A DNA stretch of 40,679 nt from a virus. Of this stretch, positions 7,322-34,551 are shown piece by piece (positions within the stretch are counted from its first letter, which is position 1; each line of letters starts with the position of its first letter). A program made the translations under genes and the position numbers. The notes beneath the pieces were generated by a model. It did no database searches and was not told where the DNA came from. It saw nothing but the letters and a program-made list of their open reading frames with translations. The stretch lies in IMG/VR virus record IMGVR_UViG_3300012930_000018, positions 1-40,679 of that record; one strand, 5' to 3'.

Positions 7322-7849
7322 TCAAGCTTTTTCCTCCCGTAGCTGCATCCGGATCGTGCGCGCAGCCGCGCCGTCCCGCTCCGTCAGGATCAACAACAGC
7401 TCGCGCAAGCGTGGCTCCCATGCCTGGTAGGTCGCTGGCTCAACCTGGAGCGCGTCAAGCCTCTCGGCATCGGAATAGCGGCGCATCCCGCTACCGGCGC
7501 ACACCGGACAGATAAGCCTGAGCTTATTGGACACAACCTCGCGCGCGCCCTGACACATGCCGCATTGTGGCGCGTACCACTCCCGCATGGCCTGCTGACA
7601 GGCACGGACCAGGGTAGGGTGTTCCTCGTGGAACTTACCTATGCGAAGCCGCCTCCGGGCTTTGCGTAGCATCTCCTGGAGGACCGGACCCGCGTAGCGC
7701 GCCTGCCCGGCATAGCGCCAGTGATACAGCGCGCGCCCAAGCTTCCCAGCGCGCGCCAGCGCCCCTATGCGGTCAATCGCGCTCTCATGCGCCTGCGTCT
7801 CCAGGTGCGTCGAAAGCAGCGCCGCACCGACCGCCTCGCGTATCCCCAT
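7322..7849 (-). CDS. CxxC zinc-finger protein, candidate late regulator
   Basis: The 175-residue protein has a basic helical N-terminal half (LRKARRRLRIGKF) and a pair of zinc knuckles, CGMCQGA and CPVCAGSG, about aa 97-123, of the DnaJ cysteine-rich type. A helical C-terminus follows. Some phage antitermination Q proteins carry similar CxxCxGxG zinc knuckles, and a single-gene operon with its own operators would suit such a regulator, but I see no direct proof. It starts at the ATG at 7849 and is preceded by three CTAT-type operator sites. It could instead be an ordinary zinc-binding DNA protein. Confidence 0.65.
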   Translation of the reverse strand: MGIREAVGAALLSTHLETQAHESAIDRIGALARAGKLGRALYHWRYAGQARYAGPVLQEMLRKARRRLRIGKFHEEHPTLVRACQQAMREWYAPQCGMCQGAREVVSNKLRLICPVCAGSGMRRYSDAERLDALQVEPATYQAWEPRLRELLLILTERDGAAARTIRMQLREEKA

Positions 7850-7895
7850 GATGGGGAAACAGGGTATAGGAAATTCTCTTGCCCGCGCCCGGAAA

Positions 7896-7949
7896 ACTAT
7901 CTATAGCCTAATAATTACTATAGATAGGGGAATTTTCACTATAGCTTGA
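7896..7949. promoter_or_regulatory. Operator cluster, CTAT-NN-ATAG family
   Basis: CTATCTATAG (7897-7906) and CTATAGATAG (7918-7927) are exact inverted repeats whose starts are 21 bases apart. A third partial site CTATAGCTTG (7940-7949) lies 22 bases further. The cluster lies 47-100 bases upstream of the leftward gene that starts at 7849. Part of a family shared with 11798, 13349 and 16009. Confidence 0.6.
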
Positions 7950-7972
7950 TCGAAACGATTTACCCCTATCCC

Positions 7973-8476
7973 CTAATGCCGATTCGCAATCCGCAAAAAT
8001 TCATCTTCGTGGTGCTCCAAGTAGAATTTCTGCGCAAGGAGCTGATCGTCGAGCGGTAAGCCGATTTGCCGATCATGGCCGCAGAGCCGGTGCCGCACCG
8101 ATCCGTCCGGATTCAGGACCTCGATGTTGCCGACGAGATCCCCGCGTTTAATCCGGTAGCGCACCCCGGACTTGCCATCGACCAGGAACCACCGGTGCGC
8201 GGCAAGATCGGCACGCTGGCGCTCGTCCAGATAATGCAACAACAGCGCGCTTGCGCGATCGCCCGAAGCCTTGCGTTTTTCCTCGAACTCGCGAAGCTCC
8301 TGCCTCCTAGCCTCGATCTCATCAGCCGTCCAAGCGGCCCAAATGCAGTTCGTGCTTGACGTAGTGGCGGCATCAATCCAAGAATTCCAAACGCCCAGGG
8401 TGCTCGTCACGGCAGTAGTCACGGCAGCAGATTGACCCGCCCCCGCCCAGGTGCTCGCCGTGTAGTAAAACGGCAC
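7973..8476 (-). CDS. Phage protein with FLRIANRH tail, 167 aa; paralogue of 10741-11157
   Basis: The N-terminal part, starting MPFYYTASTWAGAGQSAAVT, is Ala/Thr-rich, then a charged helix (ADEIEARRQELREFEEKRK) and a beta-rich half (GVRYRIKRGDLVGNIEVL). The end LAQKFYLEHHEDEFLRIANR matches the paralogue's LIQKLYIETNEFEFLKIA. Starts one base after the upstream stop. The C-terminal pattern suggests a shared fold; function unknown. Last gene of the 11676-7973 operon. Confidence 0.75.
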   Translation of the reverse strand: MPFYYTASTWAGAGQSAAVTTAVTSTLGVWNSWIDAATTSSTNCIWAAWTADEIEARRQELREFEEKRKASGDRASALLLHYLDERQRADLAAHRWFLVDGKSGVRYRIKRGDLVGNIEVLNPDGSVRHRLCGHDRQIGLPLDDQLLAQKFYLEHHEDEFLRIANRH

Positions 8477-8477
8477 C

Positions 8478-8705
8478 CTAACCGCCCTGGAGCGGCGGCA
8501 CCAGAATCATTTTCTCCGCCTCGGGGTCGAAGGACTTCATCGGCTCGCCTTCGCCGCCATCGCGTTTAACGCGGAAAGCCTTATAACCCTTGCGAGTCAG
8601 CACATCAAACTGTCCACGCGCCGCCTCGACCTCAGCGGAATTTTCACTGTCCCAGGTGGTGCGAGTATGGCCGGTAGAGTCAAGCGTTTCCATTTCGCCG
8701 TTCAT
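8478..8705 (-). CDS. Small protein, 75 aa; paralogue of 11147-11371
   Basis: Contains LDSTGHTRTTWDS, FDVLTRKGYKAFRV and SFDPEAEKMILVPPLQGG, which align piece by piece with the 74-residue product at 11147-11371 (FDRLVRLGYRAAR, KFDPDAETLTMVPRIHAG). Beta-alpha-beta pattern, cytoplasmic. The ATG at 8705 has a strong GGAGGA site and overlaps the upstream membrane gene. Paired with 7973 exactly as its paralogue is paired with 10741. Confidence 0.8.
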   Translation of the reverse strand: MNGEMETLDSTGHTRTTWDSENSAEVEAARGQFDVLTRKGYKAFRVKRDGGEGEPMKSFDPEAEKMILVPPLQGG

Positions 8706-8952
8706 GATTCCTCCGCAAAAAATTACGATGATGATGCCATGCGTCCCAATAAACCCGTGTTGTGTCGAGCCACATCAAAAACGACCAGCCCCAAAAAACA
8801 TAGATAACGAAATGAAAAAAAGTCCCGCCAAATAATGAATCTATAGCAGCAATAAAAATAACCACGAGAAATGCAAGGCACAAGAAAAACATTCGCCGGC
8901 AGCGGCGCAGCTCCGCCAACACTATAAGCAGCGGCAGCTCGTCCTCCTTCAT
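8680..8952 (-). CDS. Two-span membrane protein, 90 aa
   Basis: After a short charged N-terminus (MKEDELPLLIVLAELRRCRR) come hydrophobic spans at about aa 21-38 (MFFLCLAFLVVIFIAAI) and 44-62 (FFHFVIYVFWGWSFLMW). The tail is rich in His, Arg and Asn and lies in the cytoplasm. Overlaps both neighbours by a few codons, so it is a genuine operon member. Function unknown. Confidence 0.7.
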   Translation of the reverse strand: MKEDELPLLIVLAELRRCRRMFFLCLAFLVVIFIAAIDSLFGGTFFHFVIYVFWGWSFLMWLDTTRVYWDAWHHHRNFLRRNHERRNGNA

Positions 8953-9554
8953 TTGCGGGGTTTCCCGCGCAGGGTGTTGTTCTCAAACCTACTGAGGAAT
9001 TTCTGAGACGGATGCGACTGGATCAGATCCCGGATTCGCATGGCAATTTCGGCCCCGCGTGTGCCCTCGATTTCGACAATCAACGCAGCCTGCTCCAGGC
9101 GAAGCCGGCGCTGCTGCTTCGTCTTTTCAATCTCAAGCCGCAAGCTCGCGGTAGGATCGTATAGCCTTATCCAGTTCCTCAATTGATTTTCGGAAACATC
9201 AAACTCCTGCGCGACCTCGGCATAACTGCGCTCCCCGATCATCGCGACCGCTCGGTGTTTGGTCTCTTCGGTAAAGCTACGTTTTACGCCGGCTCTCCGC
9301 GCCGGAATCACCGAAAGCGGTATATCGGCGCGAGAACCGCCCATATCGACACCCGGAAAAGGGTCATCGATGGAGGGAATGAGTCGCGCGGGGACCGCCG
9401 ACTTCGGAATATTGAGTCGAGTCATGGTCTGCCGAATTTTCTTGGGCATGAAGTCGCTGGTCGGAACCCCGAATTTTTTTGCGAGGGAGCGGCGCTTCGC
9501 CATATTCGCGTCACGGACGCGCCTTCCAGCCGCACGAATCGCTTCGTTTATCAT
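8949..9554 (-). CDS. Helix-turn-helix protein with transposase-type HTH, 201 aa
   Basis: The segment RSFTEETKHRAVAMIGE, then SYAEVAQEFDVSENQLRNWI (about aa 90-130), is the HTH seen in IS3-type OrfA proteins and in some phage small terminases. A basic N-terminus (RRSLAKKFGVPTSDFM) may add a second DNA contact, and a coiled coil (LRLEIEKTKQQRRLRLEQ) follows the HTH. No catalytic transposase domain is present, so it is a DNA-binding protein, not an insertion sequence. A transcriptional regulator or small-terminase-like role is possible. Confidence 0.75.
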   Translation of the reverse strand: MINEAIRAAGRRVRDANMAKRRSLAKKFGVPTSDFMPKKIRQTMTRLNIPKSAVPARLIPSIDDPFPGVDMGGSRADIPLSVIPARRAGVKRSFTEETKHRAVAMIGERSYAEVAQEFDVSENQLRNWIRLYDPTASLRLEIEKTKQQRRLRLEQAALIVEIEGTRGAEIAMRIRDLIQSHPSQKFLSRFENNTLRGKPRK

Positions 9555-9557
9555 AGT

Positions 9558-9869
9558 TTAGGCCCCCATGAATCTGATCGAATCAACGCGGCGCGTGTAT
9601 TGCCCGAGCAAACGTCCGGTGCGCGCGTCGTAGACTTCGATCGAATCGCCAATCGACGACCAGCGCGCCTCGATCAACGCCCCCATGTGCGCGCGTTTGG
9701 GATCAGCATAATTGCGCCAGCGGAGATTTCTGCGGTTGACGGCATCCCAAAGCCGGAACGGCCGCGCAGCCTCGCCACGTTCGCGCGAGTCCCAATGATA
9801 TTTCTCTTCGTACTGCGACTCATCACGCTGCGCGTGCAGCGCGCTGATCTTTGCCGTTGCTGCTGACAT
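9558..9869 (-). CDS. Small phage protein with C-terminal beta domain, 103 aa
   Basis: Starts at the ATG at 9869, 8 bases after an AGGAGG site; the TTG two codons upstream is too close to it. The N-terminus is helical and charged, and the C-terminus IEVYDARTGRLLGQYTRR is a typical small beta-hairpin domain also seen in other uncharacterised phage proteins. Cytoplasmic, no membrane segment. Sits between the HTH gene and the 287-residue gene in one leftward operon. Confidence 0.7.
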   Translation of the reverse strand: MSAATAKISALHAQRDESQYEEKYHWDSRERGEAARPFRLWDAVNRRNLRWRNYADPKRAHMGALIEARWSSIGDSIEVYDARTGRLLGQYTRRVDSIRFMGA

Positions 9870-9884
9870 GCCCAAGCCCTCCTT

Positions 9885-10748
9885 TTAGTGTGCCTGAATA
9901 CTTTCCGAACGTACCCCGGAATAGGGCGTTTGCGGAAACGATTGCATCAACGCCCGCGTCAGGTCGGTGATGCCGCCGTTGATGCGTCGCAATCTGTCCG
10001 TAGGCACCAGGCTTTCGTCAGAATGTCGGACGAATTTGACCATCGAAAACACCTTCACGCATCCTTGTGAAACCTGCTGGATGTGTTTGGACGGCGTTCC
10101 TTTGCTCAAAAAACGAAAGTCAAGGTTCGGAAAACTACGCGCGATGGTCTGCTGCTGCGCTGGCAACAATCCCAGCACCAGGACCTTCGGCGTTTGCAAA
10201 CGCTCGGGCAGATCGCCAAAATTATGCAGCCCCGCATCCTTGCCGTTGTCGCCCGATACGCGCGGGATATAGGTGCTAGGCGTGCCCAAGTGGTGACGCA
10301 GATCGTAAAGCGCGTCGCGCACGTTCCTCCCGATCTTGTCGCCCACGACCTCGCCAAAAGTCTGCCCGAACGTCTCCGCAAAAGTTCGTACCATCTCCTG
10401 CGCAACATAGGTAAGCGCTTCTGCAAATTTCGGGCTCATGCCAAGTCGGGAGGGAATCGGGGGAGGATCTTGCAACGGCACGGATTCGGCTGGCGCTTCG
10501 GGTGGCGGCGGAGTCTCTTTGAATTTTTCTCGCAGAGCCTTGCCCAGCTCGGCGGTCAATGCGCCGTTTATTGGTCTACGCCGCGACGGCGTAAGAATTT
10601 GATTCTGCGCCCTCGTGACCAGTTCGGGCATGCCCCGGAGCCTTAACAGACGAAAATCAATGTCGGCCTCTCCTGATCGGATCATCTCCGCCATTTTGTT
10701 CAAAACAGAAACGCGCTCATCAATAGTCCAGCAAATTATGTTAGCCAT
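9885..10748 (-). CDS. Regulator-like protein, 287 aa, with possible DUF2325-like C-terminus
   Basis: The start at 10748 (MANIICWTIDERVSVL) has GGAGAG five bases upstream. The N-terminal part contains LLRLRGMPELVTRAQ and a proline-rich linker (about aa 79-101). A helical region resembles an oligomerisation segment (VVGDKIGRNVRDAL). The C-terminal part, KVLVLGLLPAQQQTIARSFP followed later by VKVFSMVKFVRHSDESLV, reads as a Rossmann-like fold similar to DUF2325. This similarity is by eye. It overlaps the paralogue gene 10741 by 8 bases. Possible sensor or regulator. Confidence 0.65.
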   Translation of the reverse strand: MANIICWTIDERVSVLNKMAEMIRSGEADIDFRLLRLRGMPELVTRAQNQILTPSRRRPINGALTAELGKALREKFKETPPPPEAPAESVPLQDPPPIPSRLGMSPKFAEALTYVAQEMVRTFAETFGQTFGEVVGDKIGRNVRDALYDLRHHLGTPSTYIPRVSGDNGKDAGLHNFGDLPERLQTPKVLVLGLLPAQQQTIARSFPNLDFRFLSKGTPSKHIQQVSQGCVKVFSMVKFVRHSDESLVPTDRLRRINGGITDLTRALMQSFPQTPYSGVRSESIQAH

Positions 10749-11157
10749 GAAACTCTCCGGGAAAATGAGGGGGAACCAAACCGCGACCACTTGCACAAGC
10801 AATCTTCAAAAACTCGAATTCGTTGGTTTCGATGTAGAGCTTCTGGATCAGCATGTGATCGGCCATCGGCACGTTGGCATCGGACCCCGTGCAAAAAGCC
10901 TGCGCAACATGCTGTTCATAAGGCATGTAGCTGTGCTCGATGTGATAAACGTTGTTCGACCAACGCGGCACGATTGTATAAACGCGCTTGGTGAAGTTGC
11001 CGCGAGCCCGGAAAGTGCGGGTGCGTAAGTAATCCGCAAGCTGCTCAGGAGAGAGATGCGCGCGGAGGGTGTTCTCCGCGCGCACTAAGGGATCGTTCAT
11101 TCCATACACCCACTGACTCGGGTGCGTGAAGTAAAAAAATGCAGCGCTATCCGGCAT
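10741..11157 (-). CDS. Phage protein, 138 aa; paralogue of 7973-8476
   Basis: Starts MPDSAAFFYFTHPSQW, overlapping the upstream stop by 11 bases. It holds LSPEQLADYLRTRTFRARGN and the shared tail VPMADHMLIQKLYIETNEFE, then FLKIA, which aligns with the C-terminus of the protein at 7973. The N-terminal halves differ, so the two copies share mainly the C-terminal domain. No enzyme motif is visible. Confidence 0.75.
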   Translation of the reverse strand: MPDSAAFFYFTHPSQWVYGMNDPLVRAENTLRAHLSPEQLADYLRTRTFRARGNFTKRVYTIVPRWSNNVYHIEHSYMPYEQHVAQAFCTGSDANVPMADHMLIQKLYIETNEFEFLKIACASGRGLVPPHFPGEFHG

Positions 11158-11371
11158 GGATGCGCGGGACCATCGTGAGGGTTTCCGCATCCGGATCAAA
11201 CTTGCCGATCATGACGCCGGTCTCGGGGCTATCCATTCTGGCAGCACGGTATCCCAAGCGCACGAGCCGGTCAAATTCGGCCATAGCGTGCTCGATCGAG
11301 GCCGCATCGCCTGTATTCCAGAAGGTGCGCTCGTCGCCGTGATTATTCAGGACAATCATTACGTGCCTCAT
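11147..11371 (-). CDS. Small protein, 74 aa; paralogue of 8478-8705
   Basis: Begins MRHVMIVLNNHGDERTFWN and contains EFDRLVRLGYRAAR and GKFDPDAETLTMVPRIHAG, matching the product of 8478-8705 across its length. The ATG overlaps the stop of the NrdR-like gene (ATGA). It is followed by the second partner gene as in the other module, so the pair was duplicated together. Confidence 0.8.
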   Translation of the reverse strand: MRHVMIVLNNHGDERTFWNTGDAASIEHAMAEFDRLVRLGYRAARMDSPETGVMIGKFDPDAETLTMVPRIHAG

Positions 11372-11676
11372 TTTTTTCCTTTCTCGGTAGGGGTGGTGGT
11401 GGGTGGGTTCCGGTCCGAAGGAGCAACCGGGGCTGTCAAAAGGTCGGTACGCACGGGTTCAAGCAGCTCGCGCAGGCCCTGGAGGATGACGGCATATTTT
11501 TCAAGGTGCTGATAGTCCTCCGCAAGGATTTCGAAGGACTGGAAGGACCGCTTGCACTTGATGCAATGGCGGCGGCGCGCGACGCACCAGAAATTCCCCT
11601 CCGTGAAACGGCTGTCAGAAGTCCGCAAACCATCACTCCCGCAGAAGGGACACCGCACGACACCCCCATAACGCAC
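11368..11676 (-). CDS. NrdR-type zinc-ribbon protein, 102 aa
   Basis: The N-terminus RCPFCGSDGLRTSDSR with a second pair HCIKCKRSFQSFE matches the zinc ribbon that opens bacterial NrdR, the repressor of ribonucleotide reductase genes. The following ATP-cone of NrdR is missing: the product is 102 residues, with helical and Pro/Thr-rich sequence instead. The start is GTG at 11676, 7 bases after AAGGAGG. A DNA-binding role is likely; control of nucleotide supply is only a guess. First gene of the 11676-7973 operon. Confidence 0.8.
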   Translation of the reverse strand: MRYGGVVRCPFCGSDGLRTSDSRFTEGNFWCVARRRHCIKCKRSFQSFEILAEDYQHLEKYAVILQGLRELLEPVRTDLLTAPVAPSDRNPPTTTPTEKGKK

Positions 11677-11795
11677 GCTCCTACCTCCTTCGTCTTATTC
11701 ACGACGAGAAGCGGAAAGCCCCAAGCCCGCGTGCTTAAAATACCCAATTTTCAAGGTTCTAACAAGCGCGCCTACCAAATTACTTGCAGATCGCG

Positions 11796-11827
11796 CACTA
11801 TGCATAGTATTTTCGTACTATCCATAG
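11796..11827. promoter_or_regulatory. Operator pair, CTAT-NN-ATAG family
   Basis: CTATGCATAG (11798-11807) and CTATCCATAG (11818-11827) start 20 bases apart, with ATTTTCG between them. They lie 122-152 bases upstream of the GTG at 11676. The stretch from 11796 to 11820 is nearly the same as 16007-16032. Confidence 0.6.
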
Positions 11828-11853
11828 ATTATTGAGCCCGGTATTAGTGCGTC

Positions 11854-12726
11854 TCACAAAACCTTGGTCGGAAATTCCTCGTTCTCCTGGACGCGCAGCG
11901 TGCGCACCGTTTCACCCGCTCGCCGCTTGTTCCACGCCTTGATGGTGAGCCCGATGTAATACCAGCGCGACATTTTCACGGAGCTTCGCGCCTTGAATTC
12001 CTGCAAACGCTCGCGCAGATGCAACACCGGATCAGTCGAAGAGAGCCCCGCGCCCTCGCCCAGGTTGTCAAAAAAAGTCTGCGCCTGGACGAGATCCTTC
12101 TCCCGAAACAGGAATAGGCATCCGGCAATCACCCCGACTGCGAGAAACTTTTTCGCCTTTGAATTTTGCGCGTAGCGAACGCAAGTGAGAATGTCATCGC
12201 GCAAGGGTTCCGCGAAAGACAGGAGGTCCTCCTTACTCACGACTCCGCTGGTTGTGGGTTTGGATTTGAGCATCTGTCCGATGCGCGTCTTGGCAAAACG
12301 GGAGCGCGAACCTGTGATACCGCTCCATCCCATCTTGCAATTCTTGATGGCGTAGATAACCATCGCGGCGGCGCTCGCCTGATTCGCGGAAACGAATCCG
12401 GCGATTCCGAAAATGTCGCTGTGTGTGCGGTTCTTGCCAACATCCACAGTGGCAAAAGCGTTCTCGTCCTCAATGCCGCGCGCAATATAGGTGCGGAAAG
12501 GCTTACCCGCCAGGATGCAAGCGTTCAAACGGTTTTGCCCATCGAAAAGCCGCCCGGCCTTGTCGATCTTGATGGTTTCCCCGTTCAGGCTCCACCGGCC
12601 CTCATCCATCGCAATCGCATACTCCAGCACCTTGCTTTGCGAGACCGCCCGGTTTTTCACCATCGTCGCGAGCATCTGTTGTGCGTCTCGCGGCGTGACG
12701 TTCTCGATCAAGAGCATATGCGGCAT
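11854..12726 (-). CDS. ParB/Srx-fold phage protein, 290 aa
   Basis: The first third contains VTPRDAQQML, YAIAMDEGRWSLNGETIKID and GRLFDGQNRLNACILAGKPF, the ParB-like nuclease/Srx fold found in many phage and plasmid proteins, with the DGQHRL-type loop present as DGQNRL. It then continues with a mainly helical region. The usual DNA-binding HTH of true ParB is not obvious. Possible roles are DNA binding, CTP binding or gene control. It starts 3 bases after the upstream stop and ends the 13313-11854 operon. Confidence 0.8.
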   Translation of the reverse strand: MPHMLLIENVTPRDAQQMLATMVKNRAVSQSKVLEYAIAMDEGRWSLNGETIKIDKAGRLFDGQNRLNACILAGKPFRTYIARGIEDENAFATVDVGKNRTHSDIFGIAGFVSANQASAAAMVIYAIKNCKMGWSGITGSRSRFAKTRIGQMLKSKPTTSGVVSKEDLLSFAEPLRDDILTCVRYAQNSKAKKFLAVGVIAGCLFLFREKDLVQAQTFFDNLGEGAGLSSTDPVLHLRERLQEFKARSSVKMSRWYYIGLTIKAWNKRRAGETVRTLRVQENEEFPTKVL

Positions 12727-12729
12727 GAA

Positions 12730-13155
12730 CTAGGCATCCATTTCTTCGAGCACTCCGCGCGCCTGACGCGCCCATTGCTTCGGAGTGCTCGCGCCGGATC
12801 GACAAAAAAGTTCAACCGCGTGGCTCTCGTGCAGGCCAAAAAATCGCATCGCGACTTCGACATTGCCAAGACGGCCTCGACCGTTCAGCCGCACATCACC
12901 ATCCAGGGTCATAGTGAGCCCGGCCTTATGCAAGCTCGGGCAGACCGTAGCCCAACCGAGGGCGCAGGCAGTCGTGCCGCAAAGCGTCAGATCGCGCCGC
13001 GTGAGAACTTTGTCCACCTTCAATTGCGGATGATGGTGCGGCCTGCTGTGCTGAAACCACCAGTCCATTTGAAAGTGCTTGTTCGCGCTCGCTGGAAGCT
13101 TCTGCATGAACCGGATCAGCGTGGTGAAGTGTCTCCTAGCGGTTTTGTTTTTCAT
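12730..13155 (-). CDS. Hypothetical phage protein with CGTTACALGWA motif, 141 aa
   Basis: Begins MKNKTARRHFTTLIRFMQKL with GGAGG five bases upstream; its ATG overlaps the membrane-peptide stop. The central CGTTACALGWATVCPSLHKA motif and the later RFFGLHESHAVELF pattern are a signature I associate with a common uncharacterised phage family. Cytoplasmic, no membrane segment. Role unknown. Confidence 0.7.
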   Translation of the reverse strand: MKNKTARRHFTTLIRFMQKLPASANKHFQMDWWFQHSRPHHHPQLKVDKVLTRRDLTLCGTTACALGWATVCPSLHKAGLTMTLDGDVRLNGRGRLGNVEVAMRFFGLHESHAVELFCRSGASTPKQWARQARGVLEEMDA

Positions 13156-13313
13156 CCCAACCTCCACATATCAAGAATGAGCCTGACGGCATAAAAGCCA
13201 AGTAGGAAAACAATGAGCGCCCCGCCGATGACCATGACGGCAGCTCCGAGCACCGCACAGGCGTAGGTGAGGACCGAAGCGAGCATTTCCATATCCGGAG
13301 ATTGAAACACCAT
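13152..13313 (-). CDS. Single-span membrane protein, 53 aa
   Basis: A short gene beginning MVFQSPDMEMLASVLTYACA with a strong hydrophobic region (about aa 11-48) that may form two close spans. It ends RLILDMWRLG and overlaps the next gene by ATGA. It is the first gene of a leftward operon whose upstream region holds the operator pair at 13349-13389. The ribosome site is weak, so the start may be the ATG at 13292 or 13286. Function unknown. Confidence 0.6.
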   Translation of the reverse strand: MVFQSPDMEMLASVLTYACAVLGAAVMVIGGALIVFLLGFYAVRLILDMWRLG

Positions 13314-13348
13314 GCGCACCGAGTTTGAAACTGCTAGTGAGAATCGAG

Positions 13349-13389
13349 CTATGGATTGGCCGGAAACGGGGAATTTTAGCTATGGATAG
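13349..13389. promoter_or_regulatory. Operator pair, CTAT-NN-ATAG family
   Basis: CTATGGATTG (13349-13358) and CTATGGATAG (13380-13389) start 31 bases apart, about three helical turns. GGGGAATTTT lies just before the second, as it lies just after a site at 7918. They are 36-76 bases upstream of the leftward start at 13313 and could also affect the rightward gene at 13523. Confidence 0.55.
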
Positions 13390-13522
13390 GCCGAAACTCT
13401 TGACAAGCTATGAGTCCGGCCCGAAAATGACGATGGCCCCGAGGACGAATCCAAGGGGCCACGGCTCGGGCTTGGGCACCCCCTACCGGGAAGGTGTTCG
13501 AGCGAAAGGAGTATAACAGGAA

Positions 13523-13825
13523 ATGAGACTAGAACAGTTTGAAAACTTGGTGCGCGAGCGCCGTTTCGGCCAGCATAAAACAGGCCAGGGAAGCGGACGC
13601 ACGTTGAAAGCACTGCGTTTTTATTTGGTCAACAAAAACACCGTGCGGGAAGCTTGCCGCAAGGCGGGCGGGTTGTCGGACGCGGCGCTCTATAACGCCC
13701 TCAAGGAACTTGGGCAGCTTCCGCGTCAGCGTCAGAAGGTGAAGCGCGAGCATTGCCCTCAGTGCGGCCAGCCGCTCCCGAACAATAAACGCGCACAGTC
13801 CGCGATACCCACGATCGGCTCTTAG
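13523..13825 (+). CDS. Small HTH and zinc protein, 100 aa, candidate regulator
   Basis: The middle part RTLKALRFYLVNKNTVREAC and the following SDAALYNALKELG resemble the TrfB/KorA-type helix-turn-helix; a CPQCGQPL zinc pair ends the protein. It is transcribed rightward and alone between leftward operons, from a gap with an operator pair, so it is a good candidate for the regulator of that family. The start follows AACAGGAA. The 3' end overlaps the opposing nuclease-like gene by 125 bases. Confidence 0.7.
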   Translation: MRLEQFENLVRERRFGQHKTGQGSGRTLKALRFYLVNKNTVREACRKAGGLSDAALYNALKELGQLPRQRQKVKREHCPQCGQPLPNNKRAQSAIPTIGS

Positions 13826-14096
13826 CGGGCTTTCGCCAGCCCACCACGAGCATCCACCAGCCGGCGTCGATCAGCTCGGGCAAGGCGGATGCCGCTTCCA
13901 TCTTCGTTACGCGAGCTGCCAGGCTCGCGGCCGCGCACGCTTGCACCCCAAGAGTGCGGCCCTTGCCCACGGCCACTATATCTATACAGCCGAAAAGATC
14001 CTGCCGGATCTTGGCGAACGAATTCCACTTCTCCACAACCCCAGCTTTGTAACCACGAGCACGAAGTAGCGCAAGGGTGCGCTGCGTAGGACTCAA
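13701..14096 (-). CDS. Small PD-(D/E)XK-type nuclease-like protein, 131 aa
   Basis: Begins MSPTQRTLALLRARGYKAG. The sequence VVEKWNSFAKIRQDLFGCID followed by IVAVGKGRTLGVQAC has the spaced acidic residue (D in FGCID) and a beta strand ending in GVQ, the layout of compact phage VRR/Holliday-resolvase-like nucleases; WMLVVGWRK closes the fold. The last 40 residues are Arg/Ala-rich and antisense to the 13523 gene, so the real domain ends near 13825. The exact stop is uncertain only in the sense of whether that tail matters. Processing of DNA branches is the likely role. Confidence 0.7.
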   Translation of the reverse strand: MSPTQRTLALLRARGYKAGVVEKWNSFAKIRQDLFGCIDIVAVGKGRTLGVQACAAASLAARVTKMEAASALPELIDAGWWMLVVGWRKPAKSRSWVSRTVRVYCSGAAGRTEGNARASPSDADAEAAQVP

Positions 14097-14109
14097 AAGA
14101 ATGCCGTGC

Positions 14110-14316
14110 TCACGCCAAGCCCTTCGCCGCGTCGATCGCCTGCTGGAGCTTTAATTTCGCGGCGTCGTCAGCCGCGCGCAAGCCGTCAAGCTCCGCAGGC
14201 GAAATATCGCGACCTTCAGCTCGGGCGCGCGAAATGAGCGCGCCGATCTGGTTCGCATGGTTAAGCGCCGCGAGCATCAGCTCAAGCGCAATGTCTATAG
14301 TGGCGGTGACGGTCAT
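14110..14316 (-). CDS. Small helical protein, 68 aa
   Basis: Begins MTVTATIDIALELMLAALNH and is nearly all helix, with ISPAELDGLRAADDAAKLKL near the end. It overlaps the lipoprotein stop at 14313-14316. Short helical proteins of this type often sit next to holin and spanin genes in proteobacterial prophages, which is the only clue to function. Confidence 0.7.
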   Translation of the reverse strand: MTVTATIDIALELMLAALNHANQIGALISRARAEGRDISPAELDGLRAADDAAKLKLQQAIDAAKGLA

Positions 14317-14660
14317 TGAGTCGATCTCCTAGTAGCGAGGTATGCCTGCAAGGCGGTCAGAATCGTGATGGTTGCGGTGAGCTTCGTATCCGCCATGACG
14401 GGATCTTTCAGGAAGCTCAGGCCCACCACGTCCAGAGCTGCGCGCGCGTTGTCGGCTTGGCTCTGAACGTTTTGCGCATCGTCGGCCGAGATCCGTTTCG
14501 CGTTTAACAGCGAAAGCGTCTCCTGCCGAATCGCTGTCACGGTCGAATAGCCGGCCGCAAGCCTCTCGTTAAAAGTGCTCGGCGTGGGAAGCCCGAGCAA
14601 GGCGCACCCCTGGAGCAAGATCAAAAGCAAAAAGCTACTGCGCTTTGCATGCAACCTCAT
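14313..14660 (-). CDS. Phage lipoprotein, 115 aa
   Basis: The N-terminus is a lipoprotein signal, SSFLLLILLQGC, with a lipobox LQGC (Cys19). The mature part is helical and contains the pattern ERLAAGYSTVTAIRQETLSL, then ISADDAQNVQSQADNARAAL. It is coupled to the holin-like gene upstream and the 68-aa gene downstream. It could take part in cell-envelope disruption like an outer-membrane spanin, although it is longer than typical Rz1 proteins. A small accessory lipoprotein expressed in lysogeny is the alternative. Confidence 0.8.
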   Translation of the reverse strand: MRLHAKRSSFLLLILLQGCALLGLPTPSTFNERLAAGYSTVTAIRQETLSLLNAKRISADDAQNVQSQADNARAALDVVGLSFLKDPVMADTKLTATITILTALQAYLATRRSTQ

Positions 14661-14878
14661 GGAGTTCCTTTCGTATTAACAGCGGCGCGTTCCTCCGCCG
14701 TCCATTCCTTGCGCGGCAATGGGCTCGGCAACAGCAATGCGCCGAGCGTCGTTCCGATGTTGATTAGGACGGCGACCGCGATTGCCCACCAGTCGTGAGT
14801 CGTCGTGGCGATTCCGCCGCCCGCCACGAGGGCGGAGGCAAAAACGGTGAGCGCGATTCTCGGATAACCGTTCATCAT
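14657..14878 (-). CDS. Holin-like two-span membrane protein, 73 aa
   Basis: Starts MMNGYPRIALTVFASALVAG; hydrophobic spans at about aa 8-25 and 30-51 are split by a short HDWW loop. A charged, proline-containing tail (PLPRKEWTAEERAAV) follows, a common holin plan. The start overlaps the upstream stop, and the next gene is a lipoprotein. Holins form membrane lesions that release endolysin; no endolysin is seen nearby, so the role is inferred from topology. Confidence 0.65.
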   Translation of the reverse strand: MMNGYPRIALTVFASALVAGGGIATTTHDWWAIAVAVLINIGTTLGALLLPSPLPRKEWTAEERAAVNTKGTP

Positions 14879-15327
14879 CCAAGGACGCTCCGCGCAAGTT
14901 TCGAGCGCTCGCCCGTCGCTTCAGCTTCAGCATTCCAGGTATGGGTCTCAAGGCGTGTGAAAAGGCCCGGATACTCAAGCTTTGCCATCTCGATCGCCTC
15001 AAGCTCCGATCCGGCCCAAAACTTGCCGACCGAAACGCGCTGCGCGCTTTTCTGGTCCGTGAGTCTTACGAAAAACTGCCGGTCGCTGTCCCGGCGCTTA
15101 CGCTGTTTCACCATGCCGATTCTCCCGAGGTTGGCGAGGATCTGAAAAGCATCGACCTTCAGCCTGTCAATGTTGAGTGCCGCGTCATCGGCCCTGCAAA
15201 CCGGGCAGCGCGACAAGAATTCTTTCTCTCCGATCGAAAGCACACCGGCCGTGTAGGGCCCATGCTCAGGACACTGCACGTCACGCGAAAGTCCCGCGCG
15301 AATTCTTTTCGGATAATGCTTTCTCAT
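14875..15327 (-). CDS. Zinc-knuckle phage protein, 150 aa
   Basis: The chosen start MRKHYPKRIRAGLSRDVQCP overlaps the upstream stop (ATGA at 15324-15327). It has CPEHGPY and CPVC pairs about 26 residues apart near the N-terminus, a zinc-binding form also seen at the N-terminus of phage DnaC-like proteins, but no ATPase follows. The middle is helical (LKVDAFQILANLGRIGMVKQ), and the C-terminal half is a beta-rich domain. No known function. Confidence 0.7.
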   Translation of the reverse strand: MRKHYPKRIRAGLSRDVQCPEHGPYTAGVLSIGEKEFLSRCPVCRADDAALNIDRLKVDAFQILANLGRIGMVKQRKRRDSDRQFFVRLTDQKSAQRVSVGKFWAGSELEAIEMAKLEYPGLFTRLETHTWNAEAEATGERSKLARSVLG

Positions 15328-15584
15328 GTTGCCGAGACCTTTTGCCTTTTCCAGAACACGCCCATTTTTTCCCTGACCCAAGCGCGTTTCTCAAAAACCG
15401 TTTTCAAGTTCTGCGCGTCGCAGAAAAGCTCCGCATCGCGCTCTGCTTCAAAGTCGTAATGCATGCGACACAGGTTGGCCCAGCCCGTAGGTGCGGCCAT
15501 TCGCACGATCGCCGGGAGCATGCAAGCGTCGTAAGCGCATGCGGTGGGCACCTTCGGGATCGCCGGTCTATTTCTTCCCGCCAT
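15324..15584 (-). CDS. Small zinc-binding-like protein, 86 aa
   Basis: Contains CAYDACMLPAIVRM and then WANLCRMHYD, giving a likely CxxxxC...C..H metal site, followed by an acidic helix (FEAERDAELFC) and WVREKMGVFWKRQ. It overlaps both neighbours, so it is a coupled member of the 15813-13701 operon. Small proteins with a similar C-terminal W..E.MG pattern occur in other phages next to replication genes; role unknown. Confidence 0.65.
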   Translation of the reverse strand: MAGRNRPAIPKVPTACAYDACMLPAIVRMAAPTGWANLCRMHYDFEAERDAELFCDAQNLKTVFEKRAWVREKMGVFWKRQKVSAT

Positions 15585-15813
15585 ACTTTTCTTGCTCCCG
15601 CGCGAACCAGCTCACAATAAAACGCTTCACCCCGCGTCCGGTTTTTCTCCGACTCGGATTTCCGAGGCACCAGCCCCGGATCTCCCGCAGAGTCTGAAGC
15701 GTGTCCACGGCTGAGTAGATCGAATCAAGCTCCGCGTAGAACTCTGGCGTGATCTCGAACTCGCGCCCGCCTTGCAGCGGAATCCGGATCACTACACGCT
15801 CGGCCGAGTCCAC
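15568..15813 (-). CDS. Small phage protein resembling the C-terminus of replication-associated proteins, 81 aa
   Basis: Starts at the GTG at 15813 after CTGGAG; the longer frame upstream reads through a G-rich non-coding leader and is rejected. The product is VVIRIPLQGGREFEITPEFY, then REIRGWCLGNPSRRKTGRG followed by VKRFIVSWF. The GWC..NP.RRKTxRGxxRFI.SWF pattern is the basic tail I associate with phage replication or helicase-loader proteins, here without the larger domain. It is the first gene of the leftward operon. Confidence 0.6.
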   Translation of the reverse strand: MDSAERVVIRIPLQGGREFEITPEFYAELDSIYSAVDTLQTLREIRGWCLGNPSRRKTGRGVKRFIVSWFAREQEKYGGKK

Positions 15814-15990
15814 CTGTCTCCAGCCCCCGGAAAAAAAGCCAAAAAACCACAAGCCCCCCGACCCCCCAAGAATTTTTGGGAGATCGCTGCTCCATATTGG
15901 ATTCGGGCGTTTCCGCGCGGCCCTCAAAGCAGAAGCCGAAAAAAGGAAAAAAAGCAGGGTAAGCCTGCCACGCCGACAAAAAATCGGACA
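15814..15990 (-). other. G-rich, A/T-tract leader of the leftward operon
   Basis: No gene seen here on either strand that I would defend. On the minus strand it has two G6 runs (15862-15867 and 15854-15859), G5 at 15824-15828, long T tracts between, and a CCCAAGAA/TTTTTGGG palindrome (15865-15880). It separates the operator at 16009 from the start at 15813. A leader RNA, a G-quadruplex or a replication origin are possible. Confidence 0.4.
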
Positions 15991-16033
15991 GCCATAGTAC
16001 CGAGGGCACTATGCATAGTGATTTTCGAACTAG
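15991..16033. promoter_or_regulatory. Operator region, CTAT-NN-ATAG family, in divergent control gap
   Basis: A full site CTATGCATAG is at 16009-16018. A CCATAG half site (15992-15997) and the ATTTTCGAACTA downstream (16021-16032) copy the arrangement near 11798. It lies between the leftward start at 15813 and the rightward start at 16142, so it could control both major early units, like an early control region. The rest of 16034-16141 shows no further gene. Confidence 0.55.
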
Positions 16034-16141
16034 CGCTTTTCAACTCGCGCGTGCAGGAATAATTTCTCGACATTCCTGGACGCAAAGCAGAAGAACTCGC
16101 GGCGATTTGTGATGACGCAGAATTCCTCGCGGTGAGTCCAG

Positions 16142-16633
16142 GTGAACGACAAGAACTGTTTTCTCGGGGGGATTCCCGAAAACGATCCGGATGACTATGG
16201 AGACGCTTTCCCTATGCCTAGAACTCACGAAATGATCGAATCCCGCTACCTCAAAAAAGAGGATGTGGGCCGGGGTGTGCTCGCGACGGTCTCGCACTTC
16301 GATCAAGCCAACGTCGCGCTGGACGGGCAGCCGGAAAAAAATCGCTGGCTGATGTTTTTCAAGGAACTCGACAAACCGCTCGTGCTCAATTCAACCAATA
16401 TCCAGCTCTGCGAGCTGGCTTTTGGTTCGGACAACACTGACGATTGGGTTGGCAAAAAGATCGTGCTCTATAACGATCCTCACGTTTCCATGAGCGGCAA
16501 ACTCGTGGGCGGAATCCGCGTGCGTGCTCCGAAGGTGCCGGCACGCGCGCCGCGCCAAGAGCCGCTGCCGCCGCCGCGCGTCGAGGAAGAACCGCATCCT
16601 TTTTCCGACATGGAAGATGACATTCCTTTTTAG
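16142..16633 (+). CDS. Phage protein with SSB-like acidic C-terminus, 163 aa
   Basis: Contains YLKKEDVGRGVLATVSHF, WLMFFKELDKPLVLNSTNIQ, GSDNTDDWVGKKIVLYND and GGIRVRAPK, a mainly beta-strand pattern. A Pro/Arg linker follows, then the tail DMEDDIPF at the very end. That acidic, Pro-Phe-ending tip is the hallmark of single-stranded DNA-binding proteins, which recruit repair proteins through it. First gene of the rightward early operon, before a nuclease and a NinB-like gene. The GTG start is uncertain; ATG at 16214 is the alternative. Confidence 0.75.
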   Translation: MNDKNCFLGGIPENDPDDYGDAFPMPRTHEMIESRYLKKEDVGRGVLATVSHFDQANVALDGQPEKNRWLMFFKELDKPLVLNSTNIQLCELAFGSDNTDDWVGKKIVLYNDPHVSMSGKLVGGIRVRAPKVPARAPRQEPLPPPRVEEEPHPFSDMEDDIPF

Positions 16634-16645
16634 GGGAGACCGAAA

Positions 16646-16858
16646 ATGAAACTGTATGAATACGCCGTGATTTACAACCCGCTGCCGACCAAAGATCAGG
16701 ACGAACGCGGCGAAACGCCCAAATCCGAGCTGATCGTCGATGTGCGGCGCGCACTTTCCAACAGCGACAAGGAAATCATGATGCTTGCGGCCCGCGAAAT
16801 CCCGGAGAAATACACCGATAAGCTCGATCGCCTGGAGATCGCCGTCCGCCCTTTTTAG
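16646..16858 (+). CDS. Small phage protein, 70 aa
   Basis: Begins MKLYEYAVIYNPLPTKDQDE after AGGGGAGA, and contains SELIVDVRRALSNSDKEIMM, then LAAREIPEKYTDKLDRLEI, the pattern of a conserved small phage protein of unknown function that commonly lies beside recombination genes. Compact alpha/beta. Cotranscribed with the SSB-like gene. Confidence 0.75.
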   Translation: MKLYEYAVIYNPLPTKDQDERGETPKSELIVDVRRALSNSDKEIMMLAAREIPEKYTDKLDRLEIAVRPF

Positions 16859-16899
16859 CTCCTACCGCGCCGCAGACAAACGCGAGTAGGAGCGACGAA

Positions 16900-17079
16900 G
16901 TGAAGCCAAAAGCGCTCCGCAAATTCGACCAGATGGCGCGAACTCATCCGGATCAAGGCTGGATGAATACATCAGGTGCTGTCGGAAACACTGCGCTTTT
17001 TGCCGCGCTCGGTTCGAAGAGTCCCGCGACATACACCACCGCTAGCACGGTGAGCGGCACAACCGGCCTGGTGGGTTAG
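16900..17079 (+). CDS. Small protein, 59 aa
   Basis: Starts at GTG 16900 after AGGAG. The sequence has a basic helical start (KPKALRKFDQMARTH) and a Gly/Ala/Ser/Thr-rich end (GAVGNTALFAALGSKSPATY). The stop is one base before the nuclease start, so the genes are coupled. No family recognised; the low-complexity C-terminal half is unusual among its neighbours. Confidence 0.55.
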   Translation: MKPKALRKFDQMARTHPDQGWMNTSGAVGNTALFAALGSKSPATYTTASTVSGTTGLVG

Positions 17080-17080
17080 G

Positions 17081-17734
17081 ATGCCGACACCAAAGGCGGG
17101 CTATCACTTGAAGGACGGTCGCCGTGTCCCAGGCACGACGACCGTTATCAACCGCTTCAAGGATTCGGGCGGGCTCATCTACTGGGCCTGGAACGAGGGC
17201 AAGGAAGGCCGCGACTACCGGGAGACCTCGGGCAAAGCGGCGGATGCGGGAACCCTCGCTCATGCAATGGTTGATGCGCATATCAAGGGGAACCCCCCTC
17301 CGGATCTTGCGAAGGTCCCGGCCGAGATCGCGATAAAGGCGTCAACCGCTTTCGGCGCATACCTTGATTGGGCCGCGCAGTCCAAGCTCGAAATCTTGGA
17401 GACCGAAATCGAACTGATCTCCGAAAGCTATGAATTCGGCGGGACGCCCGATGCTATCGGCTATCTCACAGGCCGGCTCTCCGTGATCGACTGGAAATCC
17501 TCCAATGCGGTCTACGCCGATCATCTGATTCAGATGGCGGCATACAGGCAGCTCTGGCAGGAAAACCGGCCGCACTATCCGATAACGGGCGGCTTTCATC
17601 TTTGCCGGTTCGCGAAAGAACACGGTGATTTTGCGCACCACTATTTTCCGAACCTCGATGAAGCTTGGGAGCAATTTATTTTGTTCAGGCGGGCCTACGA
17701 GATCGACAAGGGCCTGAAAAAACGTGCAGCCTGA
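17081..17734 (+). CDS. RecB-type PD-(D/E)XK nuclease, 217 aa
   Basis: The active-site layout is visible: GTLAH (about aa 57-61), GTPDAIGY with Asp124, VIDWKSS with Asp137 and Lys139, and the QMAAYRQLW motif (Gln151, Tyr155) that marks RecB/Cas4-like nucleases. Such phage enzymes work as 5'-3' exonucleases or end-processing nucleases in recombination and replication. It lies between SSB-like and NinB-like genes, which supports a recombination module. The cysteines of the Cas4 iron-sulphur cluster are absent, so it is not Cas4. Confidence 0.85.
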   Translation: MPTPKAGYHLKDGRRVPGTTTVINRFKDSGGLIYWAWNEGKEGRDYRETSGKAADAGTLAHAMVDAHIKGNPPPDLAKVPAEIAIKASTAFGAYLDWAAQSKLEILETEIELISESYEFGGTPDAIGYLTGRLSVIDWKSSNAVYADHLIQMAAYRQLWQENRPHYPITGGFHLCRFAKEHGDFAHHYFPNLDEAWEQFILFRRAYEIDKGLKKRAA

Positions 17735-18802: not shown

Positions 18803-19044
18803 TGACCGCTGCGGCAATCCAATGGGTCAAGCTCCCCCATTACTGCCAGCTCACCGGTGAAACCGAGTATGCCGTCTACAACAGGCGCTCGCGCGGTGAG
18901 TGGCTTGACGGGGTGCATTGCCAGATGAGAAACCGCCGTTTGTGGGTCAACCTACCGGAGGCGCAAAAATGGGTCGAGTCTGGCAAAGCATCACTCTCCC
19001 CGAAGGGGTCGAGATCAAGCAAAACGGGGGTGCGCCTGCGGTAG
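18802..19044 (+). CDS. xis: Excisionase-like protein, 80 aa
   Basis: The sequence WVKLPHYCQLTGETEYAVYN, RRSRGEWLDGVHCQMRNRRL and WVNLPEAQKWVE has the winged-helix pattern of phage excisionases: an entry strand, an LTG turn, a recognition helix, and a final W.NL.EA.KW segment. It lies directly before the integrase, and its coding end overlaps that gene by 76 bases. Excisionases bend attachment-site DNA and direct the integrase to cut the prophage out. Confidence 0.8.
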   Translation: MTAAAIQWVKLPHYCQLTGETEYAVYNRRSRGEWLDGVHCQMRNRRLWVNLPEAQKWVESGKASLSPKGSRSSKTGVRLR

Positions 19045-20171
19045 GCATCCGCTTCCGTTACCGTGGCGTGCGCTGTCGGGAGCTGTCCCTATCTATACAG
19101 GACCCGAAACAGGCCAAACGTTACATCGCAACCGCAGCAGACAAGCTCGCCACGATCCGGCTGGAAATCGAGCTGGGGACGTTCCGCTACGGTAATCACT
19201 TCCCGGATTCCCCGCGCTGCCGGATTTTCGGGGAAGGGGAAAGCAAGACCAGGACTCTGAAACAGTCCCTGCGCGAATGGCTCGATGCGGCCGAAGAAAA
19301 GTACGAGGCCGGCGACTATCAGACCTATCGCCGGATGGTCGAGCATATCCTGATCCCGCGCGTCGGCAGCAAGCTCGTGGTCAGCTTCAGCCCGCTCGAT
19401 GCGGCAACGCTCGTTACGGCTCTTGCGAAAGAGGGCAGGGTGGGCAAGACAGTGCGTAACATCATCCTGCCGCTTCGCAAGGCGTTTGACCGCGAGCTGA
19501 TGGCCCGCACGATCGAGGCGAATCCGGTACGGCAGATCGCTATTAACGAACACCTTCCGGTTGCCTCCCGCAGGCACCGCACGCCGCTCCCGCAGCCGTT
19601 TAATCAGGCGGAACGCGAAGCCATTCTCGCCGTTGCAGATGCGCAGACCGCGAATCAGTGCCGCGCCTGGTGGGGAACCGGAATGAGCGAGGGCGAAATC
19701 TGCGGGCTCCAGTGGTCGGACTTGAGCTTTGCAACAGATGAAATCTTGCTCACGCATGTCATGGAATCGACCGGGACCCTCCGCGACCGCATGAAAACCA
19801 ACAACCGTCACCGGAAAATCAGGATGAGCCCGGAAGTGAAAGCCGCTTTCACCGCGCAAAAAAAGTTCACCTTCATCGAGGGCGGCTACGTGTTTGTCAA
19901 TCCGGTCACTGGCAAGCAGTGGGCAAGCCCCAGGGCGTCGGAACGCCAGTGGCGCACCCTGTTGAAACGTGCGGGCGTCGCCCATCGCGGCCCGAATCAG
20001 TGCCGTCACACTTATGCTGCCATCCGGATCACGCGCGGGGATAACCTTTTCGAGATCGCTGAGGCGCTGGGCCATCGCGGTATCGAGATGCTGAACAAAC
20101 ACTACGGCAGTATCATCCGCGAACGCGAGGAAGCGGCTGGACAGCGCCGGGGTACGCTGGCGGTTAAATGA
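18969..20171 (+). CDS. int: Tyrosine recombinase integrase with altered Arg I box, 400 aa
   Basis: Site-specific recombinase for insertion at the tRNA-Ser target. The ATG at 18969 follows the CTACCGGAGG ribosome site inside the excisionase gene. N-terminal arm-binding and core-binding parts come first. The catalytic domain shows CRHTYAA (Arg346, with His347 in the HTY), LGHRG and the nucleophile Tyr379 in KHYGSI. At the first catalytic arginine (usual TGLRxxE) the sequence is TGMSEGE: residue 240 is Ser, codon AGC at 19686-19688, one change from CGC. The box II His position reads Asn, as in some relatives. Otherwise intact. Confidence 0.92.
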   Translation: MGRVWQSITLPEGVEIKQNGGAPAVGIRFRYRGVRCRELSLSIQDPKQAKRYIATAADKLATIRLEIELGTFRYGNHFPDSPRCRIFGEGESKTRTLKQSLREWLDAAEEKYEAGDYQTYRRMVEHILIPRVGSKLVVSFSPLDAATLVTALAKEGRVGKTVRNIILPLRKAFDRELMARTIEANPVRQIAINEHLPVASRRHRTPLPQPFNQAEREAILAVADAQTANQCRAWWGTGMSEGEICGLQWSDLSFATDEILLTHVMESTGTLRDRMKTNNRHRKIRMSPEVKAAFTAQKKFTFIEGGYVFVNPVTGKQWASPRASERQWRTLLKRAGVAHRGPNQCRHTYAAIRITRGDNLFEIAEALGHRGIEMLNKHYGSIIREREEAAGQRRGTLAVK

Positions 20172-20918: not shown

Positions 20919-21214
20919 CGGTCATTCGCTTCGTCGCGATTGCGGGTCCGTTCGTGGACCCGAACATTCCCGAAAAAGCGTGGCTCGCTTCATTCGAGGA
21001 CACACCCTGCGGACGCGGACGCGCGAGATGGACGGCCGACCCGAAAAAGGCACTTATATTTCCATCTTTTCTCGAAGCATTCGATTTCTGGAGACAACGC
21101 AGCACGACCGTTCCGATCCGTGATGACGGCAAGCCTAACCGGCCGCTCACGGCATACACCGTGGAGTTCGAAAAGACGGAAGGTTGGCAGAGTGGGAATG
21201 CAGCGGGTTGCTAA
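20915..21214 (+). CDS. Small protein, 99 aa, ending inside a tRNA
   Basis: Begins MTVIRFVAIAGPFVDPNIPE with an ATGA overlap to the upstream gene. The last dozen residues (KTEGWQSGNAAGC) are read from the first 37 bases of the tRNA-Ser gene. The gene's C-terminus is thus made from tRNA sequence, as expected if the tRNA was acquired or moved next to the gene. The upstream 85 residues look like normal protein. Function unknown. Confidence 0.65.
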   Translation: MTVIRFVAIAGPFVDPNIPEKAWLASFEDTPCGRGRARWTADPKKALIFPSFLEAFDFWRQRSTTVPIRDDGKPNRPLTAYTVEFEKTEGWQSGNAAGC

Positions 21215-21270
21215 CCCGCCGAGTCGCGGGAAACCGCGATGCACAGGTTCGATCCCTGTACCTTCCGCCA
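21178..21270 (+). tRNA. tRNA-Ser, anticodon GCU
   Basis: A complete class II tRNA: acceptor GGAAGGT (21178-21184) pairs with ACCTTCC (21260-21266). The anticodon stem GCGGG/CCCGC encloses the loop TTGCTAA with anticodon GCT at 21210-21212. A long variable arm CGCGG/CCGCG precedes a T arm ACAGG-TTCGATC-CCTGT. The discriminator G and the CCA (21268-21270) are encoded. It lies beside attP, so it may be phage-borne or captured from the host. Confidence 0.93.
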
Positions 21271-27143: not shown

Positions 27144-27146
27144 GAT

Positions 27147-30425: not shown

Positions 30426-31093
30426 TAGCAGACCTCCCAAATAATCTCGTCCTCGACGTGCTGCGCGTCCATCGCGATGTAGTCGCCCAGGCAGGAGCGA
30501 TACATCTGCCATTGTTCGGCTGTTCCCGTGCCGCCATCTTCACCACGCTCCGCAATCGCGCGCGCCCAGGCTCCCAGCTCAACCGGGAGCGAGGCTATAT
30601 CGAAGGTATCGGAATAAGCAGCAAGATCCACCTGGGGAATGACCAGCCCGAGCTTGAGGGAATACACTCCATCGGGAGTCGGGTACAGCTCTAGGCCCGG
30701 ATCGCCGGACGAATTGATGCCAATCAAGCGATACCAGTTCGGGATTTGGTTGTTGACGGTGTAGGTCTGAACGGCTTCCTCGAACTGCCCTTGTGGCCAA
30801 GGAATGATCCAGGTGCGATTGGTCGCATTCCAAATGATCTTGCGCCGGTCGTAAAACCGATAGCGCTGGCCGGCACCCGTAACCGTATAAAGCGAGGTCG
30901 CCGCCATGGTTGCAACAGTTTTGGTCTGGCGCAGCGCCGTCCAGTCCCAGGCATCCTCGACCTCCTGCTTCGCCTCATTCACGAATTTCAGGATGAGTTG
31001 CGGATAGGTATTGGAAAAGGTCGAAGAGTTGACCTGAGACTCGCGTAGGCGCGCGAGTACGGCGTTCACAATGTTGAGCGCCGTGGTGCTCAC
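30425..31093 (-). CDS. Head-tail adaptor / tail tube protein, 222 aa
   Basis: Starts MSTTALNIVNAVLARLRESQ and contains YPQLILKFVNEAKQEVEDAW, the first two helices of the podovirus adaptor (gp4/gp11-like) that docks below the portal. The later part holds beta strands and WIIPWPQGQFEEAVQTY. Length near that of T7 gp11. It lies just before the hub gene, as in related phages. Confidence 0.8.
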   Translation of the reverse strand: MSTTALNIVNAVLARLRESQVNSSTFSNTYPQLILKFVNEAKQEVEDAWDWTALRQTKTVATMAATSLYTVTGAGQRYRFYDRRKIIWNATNRTWIIPWPQGQFEEAVQTYTVNNQIPNWYRLIGINSSGDPGLELYPTPDGVYSLKLGLVIPQVDLAAYSDTFDIASLPVELGAWARAIAERGEDGGTGTAEQWQMYRSCLGDYIAMDAQHVEDEIIWEVC

Positions 31094-31297: not shown

Positions 31298-31298
31298 T

Positions 31299-31700: not shown

Positions 31701-31718
31701 TGGAACTTTCCTTTTTCA

Positions 31719-31749
31719 AAAAAATGGGCCGGGATTGCCCCGGCCCATC
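31719..31749 (-). terminator. Terminator after the capsid gene
   Basis: Read leftward, ATGGGCCGGG pairs with CCCGGCCCAT (31725-31734 with 31740-31749) and is followed by TTTTTTT. A strong, likely leaky stop right after the capsid gene, as in T7 after its capsid gene, would raise capsid mRNA relative to downstream genes. Confidence 0.8.
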
Positions 31750-31759
31750 ATGCGGAGGG

Positions 31760-32674: not shown

Positions 32675-32685
32675 TGCTTACTCCT

Positions 32686-34174: not shown

Positions 34175-34180
34175 TTGAAA

Positions 34181-34543: not shown

Positions 34544-34551
34544 GTCAGTAA

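Follow-up and report, generated by a model that had tools for sequence, protein, structure and literature searches.

Which protein reads the short palindromes that stand before leftward operons in the virus record IMGVR_UViG_3300012930_000018? The window analyzed here is the whole of this IMG/VR record (G000; 40,679 bases). A preliminary description of it had listed eight sites of the type CTATNNATAG and predicted a phage regulon controlled by a dimeric protein, with the helix-turn-helix (HTH) proteins encoded at 13523 and 8949 as candidates. The array of sites is real. The palindromes strongly resemble the box recognized by NrdR, and an NrdR-type zinc-ribbon protein encoded by the phage itself is the likely regulator.

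An intergenic array of palindromes

The exact palindrome CTATNNATAG occurs six times in the window (starts 7897, 7918, 11798, 11818, 13380 and 16009) against 0.11 expected, and the whole record holds no further exact copy. None of 100 dinucleotide shuffles contained at least six copies. Among all 4+4 palindromes with gaps of 0 to 12, CTATNNATAG has the lowest p-value (log10 p -7.2), and the best log10 p of any such palindrome in 40 order-2 shuffles was -4.84. The comparison with shuffled sequence and the whole-genome scan, both proposed in the preliminary description, thus uphold the pattern. Its count of eight sites requires amendment: six are exact, but the site at 13349 (CTATGGATTG) carries one mismatch, and the one placed at 7940 begins in fact at 7939 (CTATAGCTTG) and carries two.

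All eight sites are intergenic in the gene map of this analysis, in a region (7322-17734) where intergenic DNA amounts to 1,172 of 10,413 bp (11.3%). The region has five gaps of more than 40 bp; four carry sites, and the fifth, at 16859-17080, lies among rightward genes. The earlier statement that sites precede all four leftward operons holds within this region; it does not extend to the leftward structural and terminase genes (74-1342 and 22400-40649), where no site was found. The clusters 13349/13380 and 16009 are located in divergent gaps and could serve the rightward genes too. The distance from site to start codon varies from 35 to 195 nt. The start-to-start spacings of 21, 21, 20 and 31 bp agree with the near-helical phasing originally proposed, but phasing alone is weak evidence, because just two of them, 21 (7897-7918) and 20 (11798-11818), rest on pairs of exact sites.

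NrdR-box-like sites and an NrdR-type ribbon

NrdR is described in the literature as a regulator of ribonucleotide reductase genes (and topA). The published consensus of its box is acaCwAtATaTwGtg, typically present in two copies that lie a whole number of helix turns apart (PMC4009431), and the NrdR-DNA structure from Streptomyces coelicolor displays conserved G-C pairs at 9 and 18 and at 40 and 49, that is, a 10-bp span repeated 31 bp apart (PMC9110341). CTATNNATAG corresponds to the core of this box, with C and G ten bases apart and TAT/ATA between them, and the six exact sites match the core CwAtATaTwG, its centre aside. Among Escherichia coli probes (PMC12176259), the core CTATATATAG is found in two of six boxes, and the spacing is 31 bp in all three pairs. 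The window was scanned at 40,664 positions with a 16-column matrix made from six E. coli NrdR boxes only. The phage sites rank 1, 2, 3, 4, 6, 13, 73 and 103-104, and the best score in the window exceeds the best of 20 shuffles. When the matrix columns were permuted with palindromy kept, none of 300 matrices placed at least three sites in the top four. Judged from sequence, the case for NrdR-box-like palindromes is strong. The record has no match to the reductase family PF02867, the only one searched, and therefore the boxes, as far as tested, do not serve the usual NrdR target.

The gene directly behind the sites 11798 and 11818 encodes an NrdR-type zinc ribbon, which the preliminary description had not named. 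Its product scores 35.6 bits against PF22811 (cut-off 27.2), the sole match to this family in the record, and is similar to five distinct NrdR sequences in PDB (phmmer E 1.3e-4 to 2.4e-3). Aligned with full-length NrdRs, it keeps both CxxC motifs and the base-reading residues D15 and R17 (D21 and R23 in the phage protein), which appear to confer sequence specificity in the S. coelicolor structure (PMC9110341). The same alignment shows R27-R29 kept as R34-R36 and E42 as E49; R27, R29 and E42 are reported to constitute the interface of the E. coli NrdR ribbon dimer. The ATP-cone (PF03477) has no match in the 102 residues, whereas a full-length NrdR control does match, and the equivalog cut-off of NCBIfam TIGR00244 (124.65) is missed with 28.9 bits over the ribbon part only. 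In place of the cone, a helix is predicted at residues 52-81, whose blocks at 61-80 reach a predicted local distance difference test (pLDDT) value of 84-85 within a poor model. Hydrophobic residues occur along it at a spacing of 3-4 by eye (L58, Y61, L65, L68, L72, V75 and L79), which suggests a coiled coil.

The earlier prediction that a dimeric protein acts on dispersed operators is well supported, and because the palindrome is an NrdR box, the ribbon is a better candidate than the 13523 and 8949 products, which are probably the wrong ones. We therefore regard the ribbon as the likely dimeric regulator of the leftward operons. A ribbon dimer would bind each single box, and neighbouring boxes would seat two or three dimers in a row on one face of the DNA, spaced by two to three helical turns. 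The protein would control the leftward operons, most likely as a repressor, and its own operon and that of the Q-like antiterminator would be among them. In the absence of an ATP-cone, neither dATP nor ATP should be required for its binding. Binding to the sites, repression, nucleotide independence and an autoregulatory (Cro-like or CI-like) role are inferred; the protein may be a lysogenic repressor or, judging by the position of its gene among leftward ones, a Cro-like brake. Host NrdR may also bind the phage sites.

The ribbon weighed against other readings

Several observations weigh against the ribbon as the reader of the boxes. R37 of NrdR is replaced by Ser and R26 by Ala, so that the backbone-contact motif RRRR reads ARRR. 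The model of the protein is poor overall (pLDDT 61), and a Foldseek search with it returned nothing significant, an uninformative result. The central AT of the consensus, present in five of six E. coli boxes, is found in none of the eight phage sites. Three of the four spacings are 20-21 bp instead of 31 bp, and the NrdR tests described in PMC12051234 cover spacers of 12-27 bp, a set that does not include two-turn spacing. Comparative data add to these points: among the phages with cone-less ribbons, only one of 12 records (L179 and L182 not included) has CTATNNATAG, in a single copy, and the E. coli matrix reveals no box array in the six examined; no ribbon above the PF22811 cut-off accompanies tandem CTATNNATAG pairs in the 50 contigs tested of 75; and no relative among the genomes compared has both ribbon and boxes. 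As no examined phage with a related ribbon has such an array, the pairing of ribbon and boxes rests on one genome. PF22811 is also absent above cut-off from 50 other viral records, mostly relatives by major capsid protein (MCP), of about 85 loci, with two sub-threshold fragments. Its absence from both sets of 50 and its presence here make a chance co-occurrence with the boxes unlikely.

Ribbons devoid of an ATP-cone form a group that comprises six of the seven proteins scanned, the seventh being the full-length control, and in all ten IMG/VR ribbon loci the open frames leave no room for a cone behind the ribbon. The group includes proteins of the Synechococcus phages S-CRES1, Ssp-JY39 and Yong-M2-251. 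These phages and the ten loci share with the window phage a ribbon and a short tail (26-36% identity to the window protein), and differ from it in having no NrdR-box array in those examined. In L181 and L183, the high matrix scores looked at lie within open frames or at their ends, and G063 scores 14.3 and 12.9 at its two best positions, where shuffles reach at most 13.9, with no excess of pairs at 20-21 or 31 bp. The ribbon gene of Yong-M2-251 lies downstream of an annotated DnaB-like helicase, an order also found in Ssp-JY39. The NrdR-type ribbon gene of S-CRES1 (24616-24819; L174:8010-8213) has no annotated coding sequence of its own, and a ribonucleoside-triphosphate reductase is annotated a few kb away.

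The preliminary description had also proposed a scan of relatives. The palindromes were looked for in the close relatives G001, G002 and G019 (MCP 89% and 79%, terminase large subunit 87%), and none was present; the 11854 protein is likewise absent, and PF22811 has no match in any of the three. This joint absence is consistent with module exchange, and is no proof of linkage. In L166 and L167 the exonuclease gene is the sole match to the window in the stretches compared. A scan of IMG/VR for tandem pairs yielded 75 loci, of which 60 have pairs at 21 bp and 15 at 20 bp; most lie in AT-rich genomes. They are no kin of the window, the 21-bp excess could stem from seven-codon coding repeats, and we discarded them as support.

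Two of these comparisons gave separate observations. The first 60 bases of the 41,522-base G001 (L162, L163) recur from 39306, so that the contig probably represents a genome of about 39.3 kb whose end is redundant; an 18-bp repeat, CCGATGTGCTTGCATCGT, is found there with 21-bp spacing (L162:38-76, the same sequence as L163:19343-19381, at both contig ends) and possibly represents operators of its own. In a 108-kb viral contig of 33% GC (L069; G023:65054-65824), there is an iteron-like cluster of CTATCTATAG-type sites, with nine CTATNNATAG in the 5.5-kb stretch covered and no PF22811 protein.

It is unlikely that the main binder is the host NrdR, which would tie the lytic operons to the host sensor of deoxynucleotides (dNTPs) and release them as dATP falls, the phage ribbon being a competitor or unrelated. 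The phage sites score as NrdR boxes with the E. coli matrix, and NrdR tolerates gaps of 14-17 or 24-27 bp between boxes of 16 bp (PMC12051234), spacings that include those of 13349/13380 (31 bp) and 7897/7939 (42 bp; NrdR pairs, 31 or about 41 bp). Pneumococcal transcripts with upstream NrdR sites go up under phage SpSL1 (PMC6755750), and hence at least one infection may alter how far host NrdR occupies its sites. By contrast, the remaining spacings are 20-21 bp or the site is single, so that 11798/11818 (20 bp) and the lone 16009 are outside the geometry of the NrdR tetramer; the AT centre is missing throughout, and the phage has a ribbon of its own.

Binding by the orphan HTH protein 13523 (or by 8949), with another role for the ribbon, is improbable. 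The 13523 gene diverges from operon C with two sites in between, the usual layout of an autoregulated repressor, and its model is helical. This reading, however, does not account for the NrdR-box character of the palindromes in a phage that itself encodes an NrdR ribbon; 13523 has no confident match to a DNA-binding family, no relatives in viral contigs or phages and a poor model, and 8949 carries a transposase-type HTH. The preliminary description had recognized no CI-like repressor; in this analysis, none of the early proteins scanned matched a CI/Cro family above cut-off. Operators of the LexA, ribbon-helix-helix and KorA/TrfB kinds were considered as well, and no family match supported them.

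That the palindromes are not operators but promoter elements, recognized by an unusual sigma factor or a phage-modified polymerase, is very improbable. They do stand just before leftward operons, several with TATAGT or CATAGT on the minus strand, but their twofold symmetry, their 20/21/31-bp spacing and the lack of a common offset to the start codons argue against it, as does the lack of a partner hexamer at a fixed distance; a search for sigma-70 promoters did no better than chance. An origin by chance, codon use or composition is negligible in probability: tandem CTATNNATAG pairs do occur in AT-rich viral contigs, many of them probably coding repeats, but the shuffles come nowhere close and all copies here are intergenic.

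Gene context and biological meaning

The features are collected in Table 1. The Q-like gene closes the leftward genes of the early region and has three sites upstream. The 11854-12726 product belongs to phrog_5931, some relatives of which are annotated as ParB-like nucleases. Elsewhere, the record encodes a terminase large subunit (74-1342), an exonuclease (17081-17734), an integrase (18918-20171) and a major head protein (31760-32674).

Table 1. Sites, operons and candidate regulators in the window
Position	Strand	Feature	Location or content	Basis
7322..7849	-	Q-like antitermination protein	leftward operon A	phrog_127 E 2e-6; tblastn E 4e-6 to MW202713 protein annotated antitermination protein
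7897..7906		NrdR-box-like operator CTATCTATAG	before Q-like gene	exact; E. coli matrix rank 1
7918..7927		operator CTATAGATAG	21 bp from 7897 site	exact; E. coli matrix rank 2
7939..7948		weaker operator CTATAGCTTG	21 bp from 7918 site	two mismatches, outer C and G kept; rank 13
7973..11371	-	rest of leftward operon B	includes HTH_Tnp_1 protein 8949-9554	
11368..11676	-	proposed regulator: NrdR-type zinc ribbon of 102 aa without ATP-cone	first gene of operon B	PF22811
11684..11690	-	ribosome-binding site AAGGAGG	before GTG 11676	sequence
11798..11807		operator CTATGCATAG	before zinc-ribbon gene	exact; rank 3
11818..11827		operator CTATCCATAG	20 bp from 11798 site	exact; rank 6
11854..13313	-	leftward operon C	13154-13313 (small hydrophobic protein), 12730-13167, 11854-12726	
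13349..13358		operator CTATGGATTG	divergent gap of operon C (leftward) and gene 13523 (rightward)	one mismatch; rank 103-104
13380..13389		operator CTATGGATAG	31 bp from 13349 site, as in each of the three E. coli box pairs	exact; rank 73
13400..13428	+	possible sigma-70-like promoter, TTGACA-17-GAAAAT	of 13523	weak: 7 found in scanned stretch vs 6.2 expected in shuffles
13523..13825	+	HTH-like orphan protein, rival candidate regulator		PapB E 0.074; low-confidence helical model
13701..15813	-	leftward operon D		
16009..16018		operator CTATGCATAG	divergent gap of operon D (leftward) and recombination/integration genes (rightward)	exact; rank 4

Three further observations concern the window itself. 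On the minus strand, 14313-14878 may hold a lysis cassette: a small hydrophobic protein is encoded there, and the next protein has a lipobox-like start. A tRNA-Ser (anticodon gct; 21178-21270, plus strand) about 1 kb downstream of the integrase gene offers a lead to the attachment site or host. The sequence ATCCGGAT is present in 10 copies dispersed through the window against 0.94 expected (positions 1010, 3726, 7347, 11189, 15782, 16185, 16946, 20022, 28646 and 36941), reflecting either codon use or a selected site.

Compared with NrdR, the phage protein has the same type of zinc-ribbon DNA-binding domain with its base-reading and dimer residues, and the sites have the core CwAtNNaTwG, one 31-bp pair and a position before operons that include the regulator's own. 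They differ in the helix that stands instead of the ATP-cone, in boxes mostly two turns apart with centres that are never AT, and in targets that are phage operons. In the Cro/CI systems of lambda-type phages, as in other phage regulons with dispersed operators, a dimeric protein acts on intergenic palindromes to control the lytic operons and its own gene. The window phage resembles such phages in its integrase and Q-like genes, but its ribbon has a different DNA-binding fold. The temperate phages GIL01 and CTXphi use the host LexA. If host NrdR binds the sites, the likeness lies in a host stress sensor that gates lytic genes, with NrdR and dNTPs instead of LexA and DNA damage, and with an additional ribbon of the phage's own.

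Virus genes annotated as NrdR have appeared in print (PMC8790148, PMC5894146), and our literature search, with most subscription papers outside its reach, found no phage regulon of the NrdR kind; further literature drawn on comprises PMC4409342, PMC2892513 and PMC10294663. A wider scheme, which we consider doubtful, is that of a temperate phage with NrdR as its lytic switch. A nucleotide-blind phage ribbon and a dATP-sensing host NrdR would compete for the same boxes, whether the Q-dependent late programme starts would depend on the dNTP pool, and cone-less phage ribbons would constitute a family of NrdR-type regulators.

If the ribbon does control the leftward operons, an NrdR-type module has been recruited as a phage regulator. 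This would suggest a function for phage zinc ribbons that are annotated as hypothetical or not at all, and would provide a natural sensor-less NrdR for asking what the ATP-cone does. An anonymous motif would thereby become a directly testable protein-DNA pair.

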